Shown: piece after piece, positions 38,034-42,293 of the stretch | Position numbering within the stretch: position 1 is the first letter of the stretch | How the letters are laid out: each line of letters opens with the position of its first letter | From: Flavivirga algicola | GTDB lineage: Bacteria > Bacteroidota > Bacteroidia > Flavobacteriales > Flavobacteriaceae | Assembly (NCBI RefSeq): GCF_012910715.1 | Contig: NZ_JABBHF010000004.1 | Coordinates: 124,001 to 188,000, forward strand | Direction: 5' to 3' | DNA: 64,000 bases | The notes under the pieces: generated by a model | What the model was told of the DNA's origin: nothing | Database searches by the model: none | Seen by the model: the letters and a program-made list of their open reading frames with translations, nothing else | Made by a program: the position numbers and the translations under genes

Positions 38034-38135
38034 CTAACTAAAACACATTATAAGGTTTATCGAAATAACAATAATTACTAAAACAGCTAATCCTATCATA
38101 CAGTATTTATCAATAACATTGTTATCTTTTTCCAT
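38034..38135 (-). CDS. Candidate 33-residue single-span membrane protein
   Basis: An ATG-to-TAG frame of 33 residues: charged N-terminus MEKDNNVIDKY and one hydrophobic helix (about 13-31). It lies about 40 bp downstream of the terminator of the candidate small RNA A, same strand, in a gene-free stretch. A protein this short can arise by chance; the topology (short polar tail plus one helix) is typical of real small membrane proteins. A second frame of exactly 33 residues lies at 44345. Confidence 0.35.
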   Translation of the reverse strand: MEKDNNVIDKYCMIGLAVLVIIVISINLIMCFS

Positions 38136-38177
38136 TCTTATTTTACTTTAAATTTATTGTTTACCCTCAAAGTTTGT

Positions 38178-38249
38178 ATTAAAAACTCTGCGCTTATGCA
38201 ACACAGAGTTTTGTGAAAATTCTCTCTCTCTAAAGAATTAATTAATAGC
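38178..38249 (-). ncRNA. Candidate small RNA A (twin of B)
   Basis: Predicted transcript of about 70 nt. It starts just after the promoter-like TACCTTTAC (38253-38261), begins GCTATTAATTAATTC, has a purine run AGAGAGAGAGAA, and ends in an intrinsic terminator: 9-bp stem 38182-38190 / 38204-38212 followed by TTTTTAA. Upstream is a 16-bp 7-2-7 dyad (38285-38300). There is no ORF inside. The promoter, spacing and 5' segment are repeated in module B, 279 bp away. The 5' segment is complementary over 12 nt to the leader of the response-regulator mRNA (39238-39249). Ends are inferred, not measured. Confidence 0.55.
38182..38212 (-). terminator. Intrinsic terminator of candidate small RNA A
   Basis: On the minus strand AAAACTCTG, 13-nt loop, CAGAGTTTTT; the sequence differs from the terminator of module B although the position in the module is the same. 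Confidence 0.65.
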
Positions 38250-38252
38250 AGC

Positions 38253-38300
38253 GTAAAGGTATGTTGCATGTATGAAAAAAAAAATACGCAGTTCTACGTA
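38253..38300 (-). promoter_or_regulatory. Activator site and promoter of small RNA A
   Basis: Minus-strand order: dyad TACGTAGAACTGCGTA (38285-38300), 20 bp, then ACATACCTTTAC with TACCTTTA as the -7-like box. There is no TTTG at -33, as expected for an activator-dependent promoter. The dyad is TACGTAG-N2-CTGCGTA, i.e. two inverted heptamers 7-2-7, the geometry bound by NarL-type response regulators. The dyad centre is about 43 bp before the inferred start. Confidence 0.55.
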
Positions 38301-38458
38301 TTTTTAATTGAAAAAAAATCCTTGACGCTCTGTATCTGGGTTTTATCTTAAATTTTCTGCGTGACTTGTATTAAATTTGTTGAAGCATACCTCCTCAAGG
38401 TTGTGTCCCGAAATAAGTTTGTTTCAAAAAGAAAGTGTATTTAAAAGATGAGTTTATT

Positions 38459-38528
38459 AAAAAGCGAAAGCTCTAAATCATAACAATTTAGAGCCTTCTA
38501 TAATTCTCCCTAAGAACTAATTAATAGC
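38459..38528 (-). ncRNA. Candidate small RNA B (twin of A)
   Basis: Predicted transcript of about 70 nt starting after TACCTTTAC (38532-38540): GGGCTATTAATTAGTTC, then AGGGAGAATT, then an intrinsic terminator with 9-bp stem 38470-38478 / 38486-38494 and TTTCGCTTTTT. The first 12-13 nt and the GAGAA segment match small RNA A; the terminator stem does not. It lies directly behind the response-regulator gene, whose stop is only 7 bp from the dyad of this module. No ORF inside. Ends are inferred. Confidence 0.55.
38470..38494 (-). terminator. Intrinsic terminator of candidate small RNA B
   Basis: Minus strand GCTCTAAAT, 7-nt loop TGTTATG, ATTTAGAGC, then TTTCGCTTTTT. Confidence 0.65.
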
Positions 38529-38531
38529 CCT

Positions 38532-38579
38532 GTAAAGGTATGTCCTGAAAACGAGAAAAAAAATACGCAGTTCTACGTA
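38532..38579 (-). promoter_or_regulatory. Activator site and promoter of small RNA B
   Basis: Dyad TACGTAGAACTGCGTA (38564-38579) identical to that of module A, 20 bp of different sequence, then ACATACCTTTAC identical to module A. On RNA the dyad with its A/T flanks can also fold as an intrinsic terminator for the response-regulator gene, so it may do both. Confidence 0.55.
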
Positions 38580-38585
38580 TTTTTT

Positions 38586-39218
38586 CTAAAAATGAACTTT
38601 ATTTAAGTTAGCCCAAATTGAAAGCGAAGTAGGCCTATTGTCTAAGCCTAGTTTGGCAACTATATTACTTCTATGTTTGTCTACAGTACGGACAGAGATA
38701 GATAACTCTTGGGCTATATCTTGACTTGTTTTATTTTCGGAAATAAGCTTTACTATTTTTAGCTCAGATTTCGTTAACAGATTTAATGTGTCTGGTTTTT
38801 GTTCTAAACTACTTGCGTTTAAATAGGATGCAATTTCTTCACTAAAATATGGTGTGCCATTTACAACATGTTTGATACAAGTTTCAATTTCTTCGATGGC
38901 AAATTCTTTTAAGATATATCCAAAAACGTTAAACTCTTTGGCCTTGTCATAAAGCTCTTCCTCTTTATCAAAAGTGATAAGAATAACTTTAGTATTCAAA
39001 TGGTTTTTTTTGCAAGCTTCGGCTATTTCCAAACCTGTTTTATGTGGCATTCTTATATCCAGAATGGCCAATTCCGGTTTTAGTTTTACAATAAGGTTAT
39101 AGGCGGTATTTCCATCTTGAGCACTTCCTATAATGTTAAATCCTTTTGAAGTTAAAAAATCGGATAGACCTCTTAACATCAATGGATGATCGTCAGCAAT
39201 CACTATTGAGGTGTTCAT
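38586..39218 (-). CDS. NarL/LuxR-family response regulator
   Basis: 210 residues. Receiver domain with acidic pair Asp9-Asp10, phospho-acceptor Asp54 in LAILDIRMP, Thr in ILITF, and Lys104 in YILKEF. C-terminal LuxR-type HTH (TKSELKIVKLISENKTSQDIAQELSISVRTVDKHRSNI). All key residues are intact. No histidine kinase is adjacent, so it is an orphan here. Directly downstream lie two copies of a NarL-type dyad driving candidate small RNAs, and the gene's own leader is complementary to them, so it probably activates the RNAs and may be fed back on by them (inference). Confidence 0.93.
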   Translation of the reverse strand: MNTSIVIADDHPLMLRGLSDFLTSKGFNIIGSAQDGNTAYNLIVKLKPELAILDIRMPHKTGLEIAEACKKNHLNTKVILITFDKEEELYDKAKEFNVFGYILKEFAIEEIETCIKHVVNGTPYFSEEIASYLNASSLEQKPDTLNLLTKSELKIVKLISENKTSQDIAQELSISVRTVDKHRSNIVAKLGLDNRPTSLSIWANLNKVHF

Positions 39219-39289
39219 TACTTGAGGAGAGTTAAATGCTATTAATTAAAAATGTAAGATTATGTTTATATATATCCCTAAATATGTGT

Positions 39290-39733
39290 TTATAATTTTA
39301 AATATAGATATTTCTTTTCATAATCTATAATAGCTTTGGCTTTTTTTAAAATATCTGCTCCTATAATCCCGTCGACAGGCTTAGAATTATGATTTATTAA
39401 AGCAGTATTTACATGGGTGAGGTTAAATAAAACCAAAACGACTTTGTTATGTTTCCATTTACCAATTTTTAATTTATTTTTTTTGGACATTTTGGTGTCC
39501 ATATCTATAGCACCAGCACCAGCAGCTTTAATAACAGAATCTTGAGTTTTTAGATTAAAGGTTTCAATGGCTTCAAATCCTACGCAAGAATTTGAGGCGC
39601 CAGTATCTAAAATAAATAAGCCTTTACGGCCATTTATGGTTGCTTTTATTTCAAAATGATTCGTTTTAGTAAGGTGTAACTTTACTTTAACATACTCTCT
39701 TTCATGGAGAAATTCCTGTAGTGTCTTTTCCAT
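39290..39733 (-). CDS. Retropepsin-like aspartic protease
   Basis: 147 residues, one pepsin-like lobe: catalytic DTGAS at 43-47 (ILDTGASNSC), psi-loop hydrophobics (GIIGADIL near 125) and a C-terminal strand YLYLKL. Single-lobe proteins of this kind act as dimers. No signal peptide is seen, though the gene overlaps the end of the CHAT gene by 32 bp, so the two are translationally coupled. Substrate unknown; being coupled to another protease suggests a proteolytic cascade (inference). Confidence 0.88.
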   Translation of the reverse strand: MEKTLQEFLHEREYVKVKLHLTKTNHFEIKATINGRKGLFILDTGASNSCVGFEAIETFNLKTQDSVIKAAGAGAIDMDTKMSKKNKLKIGKWKHNKVVLVLFNLTHVNTALINHNSKPVDGIIGADILKKAKAIIDYEKKYLYLKL

Positions 39734-42293
39734 TAGGTTTTTTAATTCTCGACAGTAAAAGTAATATAATCAATAGGATAAACAGACTAATGAAGACATA
39801 AATTAATTTATTATCATTGACTGGTTCTGTTAGTTCACCATAGTAAACAAAGGCGCCCCAATAATAAGGCGATTTTTTTATATTACTAATGGTGTCATCT
39901 TTCAGGTAATCTAATTTTGATTGATGGTTGGAAATATTAGCAGATTTATTGTTGCTATAATTTTTATAAAAGGATTTCATGATTTTAGAAGTGGACAAAT
40001 CATTTATCTGCCATAAAGAAAACAATAGGTTTTGCGCCCCAGCGTATTGAAATCCCCGAGCTATACTCATAGGGCCTTCACCTTTGTACAATTTCCCAAT
40101 ACCTGTTTCGCAAGCACTTAAAACGACAAGATCTGTGTTTAAATGGAGACTGTATAACTCATTTAGAAACATAGTTTCTTCGGCAAACTCAATATTTGCC
40201 GTAATAGAAAAATCACCACTACTAGCATGCGTAGATAAATGTATGATGTTGTAATTCGAACTGTTTTTAATAAAGGTCTTTTTTGTTGCCTGGTCCTTTA
40301 AAAAAAGAGTAGCATCCATTTCTTCCTTTATAACCTTTGCTTCATCAATAGAATAGATTAAGCTATTTTTTGTTTTTTCAAATACAGGAAAGATACCGAG
40401 AAGGTTATTTGCATTATTTTTTTTCTCCTTTTTTAAATAAAACACCGTGCTTGTATTATAAGCGATACTTTGTTTTTGCATGACAAAAGGCATTTTTGAA
40501 AAGTTTGTAGTATTTGTTTTAGATGTTAGTAATGCTTCAAATGGAATAAAATTTAATAGGCCGTCTGGGATAATGATAACATTTTCGAAACGTGATATTT
40601 TTGAAAGGTTTAAGGCATTATAAAGCTTGAAGGCAGAGTTAGTAAATTTGCTGATATCATTATTTATTGTAGAAGCATTATCAAATAAATGAATAAAATC
40701 TGCGATAGACTTTTTGGTAGCTTCATCCAAGCTAATTTTATTAAGCTCAATACCATCACTAGAAATTATAAATTGATAGATATTTTTTTTGCCATAAAAA
40801 TATTCAACCAGAACAGCTTTATCTTTTAGTAACTGGATCTGGATATCATCAATCAGAAAATTAGGATCTTTTAAATTAGAGTATTTCTTATTTATAGCTT
40901 CTTTAAGTGTTTTTAATTTGGTGCTTATAGTATTTAGATTAGAGCTTAAAGTCGTTATTACAGATGCTTGAGATTTGCCTAATTGCTCATTGATTAGGAG
41001 ATGCGTGATTTCTTCTTGTTCCTTAAATAAATGAGCTTCTTGAAGCAGTAAACTATCATTAGGATGCTGCTGTAAAAGCATTTTTTTTAGGGAGCGTTCC
41101 TTTAGTATTCCCGATTTATTTAATTCTGCATATTGAAAAGCAGAAAATAAAAGCGCATTATTTTTTGTGTTTTGATATTCGTTGAAAATAATGTCGATGC
41201 ATTTTTCACTACGAATTCTATTTGCTGCTTGATTCGATATTTTGTTTTCCTGAGAAGTCCAATTGTCTTCTAATAACTGGGACACATAAAAACTTAAGTC
41301 GTAATAACTAAGTGTTAGTTTATGGTCTTCTTGAAGCGTAGCGTATAAATCAAAAATATCTATAAATGTATTTTCGGCATATAAGCTGTTCTTATTAAGC
41401 TGTTCAATATATTTTATATTAGGCAGCAAAGTTTGTAATGCTAAATTCAAACATTTCTTACCTTCACTTAATTTGTTTAATAGTTTGCAAAGTTGAGCTT
41501 CTTCTAAATAAAACTTAGCGAGTTTTCTTCTGGATAAGCTGTCTTTAGAAAGCTGTGTTTTTACCTTGTTGAAAGCCTTTAATGCTTCTACATAGTTGCC
41601 TTTTTGTAATTGAATTTGATAGTTGTTTCGATGCTGATTATAAGTGTTTTTATGAATTGTTTTAGGAATATCTGCAACGCTGCTTATTAGGTTTAATGCA
41701 ATTTGACTATCAATATGTAATTGGATGATTTTTTGCTTTTGATACTTGTTTAGATTTTGTTTATTAAGGTAACTAGAAGTTAATTTTAATGCTGTTTCGT
41801 GTTTTCCGATGGTTTGATATAAGATGGATAGATTGATAGCACCACTCACTTGATGCTTGAGACGATTGCTTTTTTTGGCTAAGAAGATGTATTGCTTTAT
41901 TATATTTTCGGCATTCGTATAATCCCCTGTTTTAGTGTATAAGTTTCCTAATGGGATTAGACAGCTTTCTAAAATATCGAAATCAGAAAATTCTGAAAGT
42001 TCGTTTGTTTTAAAACGGTTTAAAGCGTCCTCAAAAGTGATGATGGCTTCTTTTAATTGTGTATTTTGCTCTAAATAAAACCCTTTATGGCTTTGTAAAA
42101 AAACTAGGGCTAATTGCTCACCTTTACTTTTAACCTGTTTTTTAAATGCAGATTCTTGTTGGCTTAAAAGGTTTAGTGACGTATTATTTGGATTCTCAAT
42201 AAATGTTTCGGCAGCAACATAAATACGCTCTTCTAAATTCTGAGAAAGTGCAGTGCCATAAATCAAAAAGAAAATGAAACTTAGTTTTTTCAT
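39702..42293 (-). CDS. Periplasmic TPR-CHAT caspase-like protease with C-terminal anchor
   Basis: 863 residues: signal peptide (cleavage near ALSQ), long helical TPR array (about 25-430), coiled linker (about 430-470), and a CHAT domain. The CHAT dyad is present: His689 in LSTHASSG and Cys728 in LSACETGIG, with GEGPMSIARGFQYAGA and SLWQINDLST as usual. A single membrane helix (about 829-849) and a basic tail follow, so the protease domain faces the periplasm and is tethered at its C-terminus. It lies between a PKD/barrel outer-membrane protein gene and a retropepsin gene. TPR-CHAT proteins are proteases triggered by a partner; the partner here may be the PKD/barrel protein (inference). Confidence 0.9.
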   Translation of the reverse strand: MKKLSFIFFLIYGTALSQNLEERIYVAAETFIENPNNTSLNLLSQQESAFKKQVKSKGEQLALVFLQSHKGFYLEQNTQLKEAIITFEDALNRFKTNELSEFSDFDILESCLIPLGNLYTKTGDYTNAENIIKQYIFLAKKSNRLKHQVSGAINLSILYQTIGKHETALKLTSSYLNKQNLNKYQKQKIIQLHIDSQIALNLISSVADIPKTIHKNTYNQHRNNYQIQLQKGNYVEALKAFNKVKTQLSKDSLSRRKLAKFYLEEAQLCKLLNKLSEGKKCLNLALQTLLPNIKYIEQLNKNSLYAENTFIDIFDLYATLQEDHKLTLSYYDLSFYVSQLLEDNWTSQENKISNQAANRIRSEKCIDIIFNEYQNTKNNALLFSAFQYAELNKSGILKERSLKKMLLQQHPNDSLLLQEAHLFKEQEEITHLLINEQLGKSQASVITTLSSNLNTISTKLKTLKEAINKKYSNLKDPNFLIDDIQIQLLKDKAVLVEYFYGKKNIYQFIISSDGIELNKISLDEATKKSIADFIHLFDNASTINNDISKFTNSAFKLYNALNLSKISRFENVIIIPDGLLNFIPFEALLTSKTNTTNFSKMPFVMQKQSIAYNTSTVFYLKKEKKNNANNLLGIFPVFEKTKNSLIYSIDEAKVIKEEMDATLFLKDQATKKTFIKNSSNYNIIHLSTHASSGDFSITANIEFAEETMFLNELYSLHLNTDLVVLSACETGIGKLYKGEGPMSIARGFQYAGAQNLLFSLWQINDLSTSKIMKSFYKNYSNNKSANISNHQSKLDYLKDDTISNIKKSPYYWGAFVYYGELTEPVNDNKLIYVFISLFILLIILLLLSRIKKPNGKDTTGISP

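Follow-up and report, generated by a model that had tools for sequence, protein, structure and literature searches.

Circuits built on small RNAs (sRNAs) have been charted in depth for Enterobacterales and Vibrio but only slightly for Flavobacteriaceae, a family with a major part in breaking down the polysaccharides of marine algae. In Vibrio, the multicopy Qrr sRNAs are transcribed from sigma-54 promoters, depend on Hfq, are driven by one response regulator, LuxO, and feed back on LuxO. OmpR, a winged-helix regulator, is encoded elsewhere than the sRNAs OmrA and OmrB. As outlined for the EnvZ-OmpR system of Enterobacterales, OmrA and OmrB are adjacent sRNAs of 82 to 88 nt with near-identical 5' ends and shared 3' ends, activated by the response regulator whose mRNA they repress (PMC12692685). 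Within Bacteroidota, the FopS/GibS RNAs of Bacteroides are described as multicopy sRNAs with a single-stranded 5' stretch carrying a conserved seed, a Rho-independent terminator, and binding near start codons (PMC11697453). Rfp18 of Flavobacterium psychrophilum is a flavobacterial sRNA with strong predicted structure, whose third stem-loop is predicted to act on metalloprotease mRNAs (PMC9723704).

The locus of Flavivirga algicola described here shares traits with each of these systems. Like OmrA and OmrB, its modules would give several sRNAs with the same 5' end, a likeness that owes part to how the modules were selected. Unlike the OmrA/OmrB arrangement, a NarL/LuxR-type regulator is encoded directly upstream of the sRNAs, and the terminators diverge; repression is predicted, and the resemblance is drawn without a claim of sequence homology. 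Nor is any sequence relation claimed to Qrr/LuxO. The multicopy nature, single-stranded 5' seed, terminator, and proposed binding near a start codon are as in FopS/GibS; however, FopS genes are reported to have canonical sigma promoters, whereas here a regulator gene precedes each RNA, which has its own dyad at about -41 to -43; the RNAs of classes 1 and 2 (defined below) carry an extra hairpin relative to the FopS account (PMC11697453). With two hairpins, the RNAs differ from Rfp18 as that RNA is described (PMC9723704), and a sequence relation between them is possible.

Locus organization

In the window, by which we mean the whole 64,000-nucleotide stretch of F. algicola DNA that was analysed, a response regulator of 210 aa is encoded at 38586..39218 on the minus strand. 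Pfam matches to Response_reg (1.3e-23) and GerE (1e-12) bear out its initial annotation as a NarL/LuxR-type protein, and its relatives likewise have modules downstream. We propose this regulator both as activator of the modules and as target of their RNAs. A retropepsin-like protease and a CHAT/TPR protein, encoded in the same orientation (39290-42293, minus strand), precede it, no kinase gene adjoins it, and a convergent 2-oxoacid dehydrogenase acyltransferase gene forms the far flank of the locus.

Two tandem modules follow on the minus strand and share one layout. A 16-bp dyad (TACGTAGAACTGCGTA) is separated by 20 bp, dissimilar between the two, from ACATACCTTTAC; three bases that vary and GCTATTAATTA come next, and a terminator-like hairpin is reached within 70 to 80 nt. 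In module 1, the dyad (38564..38579) lies a few bases past the regulator stop codon, between A and T runs, and is followed by a -7 box TACCTTTA (38533..38540) and by candidate sRNA 1 (38459..38528), about 70 nt long, which would comprise the 5' end GCUAUUAAUUA, a hairpin with a UUAGGGA loop region, and a terminator hairpin (covariance model 89.2 bits). In module 2, the dyad occupies 38285..38300 and the -7 box TACCTTTA 38254..38261, and the candidate RNA, an sRNA or leader RNA (38170..38249), shares its 5' end with sRNA 1 and has a GAGAGAG-type loop and a second hairpin (62.4 bits over 38174-38249). The boxes TACCTTTAC-N3-GCTATTAATTA span 38540-38518 and 38261-38239, and the distance from dyad to box is 20 bp plus ACA, or 23 nt, in both modules. 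The coordinates and both gaps of the twin modules agree with the initial annotation. It stated that no ORF lies inside either module; on the minus strand, the one ORF of at least 20 aa that overlaps a module starts at 38269, upstream of the predicted RNA start at 38249, and on the plus strand an ORF of 27 aa (38268-38351) overlaps module 2. Shortly past module 2 there is also an ORF of 33 aa (38034..38135, minus strand) that the initial annotation passed over, which encodes a conserved single-span membrane protein (MEKDNNVIDKYCMIGLAVLVIIVISINLIMCFS).

Dyad, promoter, and predicted start site

A search of the window with up to three mismatches gave two sites for the dyad; two or more sites were obtained in 2 of 100 shuffles. 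In the 5.02-Mb genome, searched at up to two mismatches, exact copies are found at these two sites only, along with two sites bearing two mismatches, and the box pattern (up to two mismatches) is found at these modules only. Across relatives the dyad core reads TACGTA-N4-TRCGTA with A/T-rich flanks, and 168 of the 184 module calls from 80 loci (five of the 184 being spurious minus-strand calls) have 23 nt between dyad end and -7 box; the spacing noted in the window is conserved. NarL sites consist of two inverted TACYYMT heptamers 2 bp apart. The dyad had been assigned to this type, and while its 7-2-7 spacing and TAC/GTA ends agree, the inner bases of its consensus do not.

Many activators act from a position near -43.5. 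In F. psychrophilum, the sigma-A box TAnnTTTG is placed at -12 to -5 in the account given in PMC9723704; applied here, that placement would make the G of GCTATTAATTA the first base of the RNA and would centre the dyad near -43.5, as the initial annotation had estimated (about 43 bp before the start). The position of the -7 box fits an RNA beginning with GCUAUU.

A further site in the genome that matches the dyad with one mismatch precedes a small ORF (locus L145).

RNA structure and family range

Both candidate RNAs fold better than 200 of 200 shuffles (z -3.4 and -4.0). In module 2, a large part of the U-tract is base-paired within the second hairpin, so read-through of this module is possible. 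An alignment of 82 modules displays an invariant GCTATTA at columns 1-7, partly a product of selection since the pattern used to pick modules included these bases. A short hairpin, TTCTTAGGGAGAA, comes next, and after it a terminator stem. Compensatory changes occur at all 14 pairs of that stem, the innermost of which is broken or gapped in up to 18 of the 82 sequences.

Of 299 genomes of the family, the covariance model built from these modules matched 118 at E 0.01, chance matches included, and 74 at 1e-6; the large searches used stricter filters, under which weak members can go undetected. Five of 295 genomes sampled across the class passed at 0.001, namely F. algicola itself, one of its family, and three outside the family, and all but F. 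algicola were judged chance terminators. Matches at L224 in the own genome, at L234, and at three loci outside the family (L232, L233, and L235) were rejected as members and read as chance terminators because neither the dyad nor the -7 box layout is present there. Comparison with Rfam at gathering score gave no match of the modules to any family, Flavo-1 included; it gave only a tRNA in the window and only tRNAs in eight related loci, and searches of the modules up to E 10 returned unrelated families with scores of about half their cut-off or less. Among the top-ranked papers of the literature searched, with most subscription journals outside its coverage, none describes this element. Very probably, both modules are genes for small RNAs, and their family, seen here only in Flavobacteriaceae, is a real and conserved one without an Rfam entry.

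Linkage to the regulator

The best 80 of 252 loci recovered in a protein search with the regulator were kept. They span Flavobacteriaceae genera, including Flavivirga, Algibacter, Tamlana, and Lacinutrix, together with unplaced MAGs of Flavobacteriales or Bacteroidia. Modules lie downstream of the regulator in all 80, in one to six copies each, and every locus has at least one plus-strand module behind the regulator with a dyad-box gap of 22 to 25 nt; successive modules are 130 to 160 bp apart in 74 of 99 cases. The linkage suggested from the window alone is thereby upheld among these best 80 of 252, with many dispersed copies lying behind other regulators instead. The 30 best-scoring loci drawn with the RNA model contained the regulator in 28 and the window's dyad type with a box in 26, which is not an independent test of linkage, since the model derives from regulator-linked modules, the window is among the 30, and several records are shared with the 80. 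On linkage and dyad geometry, the sRNA family is very probably driven by the adjacent regulator.

Related RNAs behind other regulators

In the dispersed copies, the RNA body is the same or nearly so, and the dyad differs. We sorted 112 of 135 model matches, leaving out 23 partial or weak ones, into 98 distinct places. Class 1, with the dyad type of the window, accounts for 66 places; in 63 of these, the RNA begins exactly 35 nt past the dyad end, which puts the dyad centre at 43. Class 2, with the dyad TACTCAA(A/T)TTGAGTA, comprises 17 places, all with the dyad ending 35 nt before the RNA, and class 3, with TACGG-N4-CCGTA, comprises four, all with the dyad ending 34 nt before it. None of the three dyads was present at the other 11 places, four of which are chance terminator matches. 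Class 2 bodies retain GCTATTAATTAGTTCTTAGGGAGAATTA and lie behind a PAS-LuxR protein, while the more diverged class 3 bodies lie behind another receiver-domain protein that is preceded by a kinase-like gene (the kinase matches and one of two receiver matches fall under the Pfam cut-off). Of 149 genomes, 32 contained a match to the class 2 dyad, and among 30 loci chosen from these by the dyad alone, a PAS-LuxR gene was present in 25 and a GCTATTAAT-like start 34 to 36 nt downstream of the dyad in 21. This pairing of dyad and regulator fits autologous control. The class 2 dyad is absent from the F. algicola genome, where a class 3 copy is found at C32:374106 (38.3 bits).

Complementarity in the regulator leader

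The leader of the regulator mRNA (39219..39249, minus strand) contains two segments complementary to the candidate RNAs. TTAATTAATAGC at 39249-39238 complements their 5' end, over 12 nt of RNA 2 and 11 nt of RNA 1, and CTCTCC at 39231-39226 complements the loop sequence GGAGA/GAGAG. Among the 80 loci, AATAGC, beginning at -37 to -21, is present in 51 leaders compared with 16 of 433 sequences upstream of other ORFs (at least 120 aa), and a CU stretch in 55, ending at -14 to -5 in 53 of these. The two in order, a motif set after the leaders had been inspected, were found in 40 of 80 leaders versus none of the 433 other upstream sequences, 22 of 7728 windows, and none of 80 antisense leaders. Complementarity scores of at least 16 were reached by 30 of 80 leaders versus 1 of 433, and the mean score of 14.84 exceeds that of 200 leader shuffles (11.48, sd 0.16, largest 11.93).

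The 12-mer TTAATTAATAGC, with at most one mismatch, occurs in 22 of 80 leaders versus 12 of 3200 random windows. Its exact form has three sites in the F. algicola genome, which are the regulator leader, the sRNA 2 gene (other strand), and one place elsewhere; it is found at the regulator leader, judged by distance from modules, in 10 of 12 genus genomes. In these 12 genomes it gave 79 matches compared with 19 for a reversed control, those near modules being the ones placed. The degenerate pattern TAATAGC-N3-18-TCYCY gave 66 matches in the own genome against 29 reversed. The idea of a general mRNA signal was rejected: over 120 genomes of the family, TTAATAGC-N3-18-TCCCTA gave 79 matches and its reversed control 78, with no overall excess, although a few real further targets could hide among the 79.

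Whole-duplex energy of RNA and leader separates leaders weakly and was set aside as a test, being too noisy in AT-rich sequence: 23 of 80 leaders fell below all 100 of their shuffles, 521 of 2981 random windows were as good, and the mean energy with the own leader (-15.9) was close to that with leaders of other loci (-15.0; median rank 29.5 of 80). Loop and leader types covary in a manner confounded by relatedness. Leaders of RNAs with a GAGAG loop carry CTCTC in 14 cases, TCCCT/CTCCC in 3, and neither in 15, and those of RNAs with other loops in 2, 29, and 17 cases, respectively. When leader type was defined in another way, the association was weaker (14, 13, 9, 25).

Translation initiation in F. 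johnsoniae is described as proceeding without a Shine-Dalgarno sequence and as tuned by structure near the start codon (PMC6847099); on that mode of initiation, pairing near the regulator ATG would plausibly repress. By analogy with OmrA/OmrB acting on OmpR, these observations suggest that leader complementarity is best read as negative feedback, and the sRNA family probably feeds back on its adjacent regulator.

Proposed circuit and alternative explanations

We propose that each module is one small-RNA gene. The regulator encoded directly upstream would bind the TACGTA-N4-TRCGTA dyad centred at about -43 and activate a sigma-A promoter that lacks an evident -33 box; transcription would begin at GCUAUUAAUUA and end at the terminator hairpin about 70 nt on, and tandem copies, if expressed, would yield near-identical RNAs. 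Their single-stranded 5' end and loop (UUAGGGA or GAGAGAG) may then pair in vivo with the regulator mRNA, roughly between -37 and -5 of the start codon, blocking its translation, so that the regulator would limit itself by negative feedback. The last module would additionally express the small membrane protein. Taken whole, from regulator-activated modules to feedback and small protein, we regard this circuit as likely. It would offer a defined family of sRNAs for which activator, operator, start site, terminator, and an initial target can all be predicted.

A different reading of the feedback step is that the RNAs are trans-acting sRNAs under the regulator whose targets do not include its leader, the AATAGC and CU-rich stretches of the leader serving the mRNA start region or ribosome access. 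The complements are arranged in the leader with that of the tail before that of the loop, which is unlike one continuous antiparallel duplex, and pairing in the observed order would require either that a duplex with the tail be combined with a kissing contact at the loop or that two RNA molecules take part. Moreover, AATAGC is missing from 29 of 80 leaders (11 among the 40 nearest loci and 18 among the 40 farther ones), the duplex-energy test is weak, and a tree-based test of loop type against leader type left just one to three supported independent pairs for loop type. However, the leader motif is strand-specific and absent from the 433 other ORF upstream sequences, its pattern shows no genome-wide excess in the 120 family genomes, and it covers both conserved unpaired parts of the RNA. 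We consider this reading unlikely.

Somewhat less probable again is a duplicated cis-acting element, a 5' leader belonging to the gene of the small membrane protein, with upstream copies that have no independent role in trans. A small hydrophobic ORF of 28 to 55 aa, most commonly 33, does follow the last module in 76 of 80 loci, 59 to 399 nt from the box, and in Yeosuana (L064, L083) the sole module is such a leader, with no U-tract after the hairpin. Internal copies nonetheless keep the 5' end and loop, and their stems are followed by U-tracts; where copies lie behind PAS-LuxR regulators, they finish with a hairpin and T-run resembling a terminator.

In our main reading, the last module probably doubles as the leader of the small membrane-protein gene, and the regulated promoter pair described for the window, well supported in itself, belongs to a wider RNA family. 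Among 36 ungapped ORFs of 33 codons, close pairs differ by 232, 84, and 448 substitutions at the three codon positions, as expected for coding sequence; this conserved small membrane protein behind the last module is newly pointed out here.

The initial annotation had also allowed that the dyads might occur only as terminators; here they would end, in both directions, the regulator gene and the module before. The A and T runs flanking the dyad a few bases past the regulator stop codon would suit this, but the spacing of 23 nt to the -7 box is fixed, dyads recur in internal modules behind another terminator, dyads without a T-run exist (TACGTAACGTTACGTATTG in L196 and L202), and classes 2 and 3 have unrelated dyads at nearly the same place, so that this explanation is largely refuted.

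Beyond the feedback circuit, it is uncommon for closely related RNAs to be wired to several different regulator-operator pairs, and such pairs form a natural set from which the DNA code used by LuxR-type regulators could be read. In 12 genus genomes, 65 occurrences of the pattern TANNTTTRNNNNGCTATTAA compare with 6 for the reversed control (1 versus 2 in nine more distant genomes). Its seven places in the F. algicola genome are the two modules, the class 3 copy, two terminator-ended candidates, and two without an evident terminator. The terminator-ended candidates start GCTATTAATC after a -7 box, recur in the genus (C7:50446, plus strand, with L329:1947-2016; C37 near 41326, minus strand, with L328 near 1820), and have little in common beyond their first nine or so bases. 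From this excess and these candidates we tentatively draw a family-wide relay, possible though short of likely, of several regulators (NarL-type, PAS-LuxR, a further response regulator accompanied by a kinase-like gene, and perhaps others). Each would have, directly behind its gene and under its own palindromic operator at about -41 to -43, an sRNA with the common 5' seed GCUAUUAAU, their different signals converging on one set of targets that includes the mRNA of the NarL-type regulator.

Two minor observations concern the PAS-LuxR loci. By eye, CTCTC is close to the start codon in 5 of 14 PAS-LuxR leaders (L205-L220), possibly a target of the loop only. At L281:1501, a class 2 dyad without a regulator precedes an apparent mRNA starting GCTATTAAC, possibly another target gene of PAS-LuxR.
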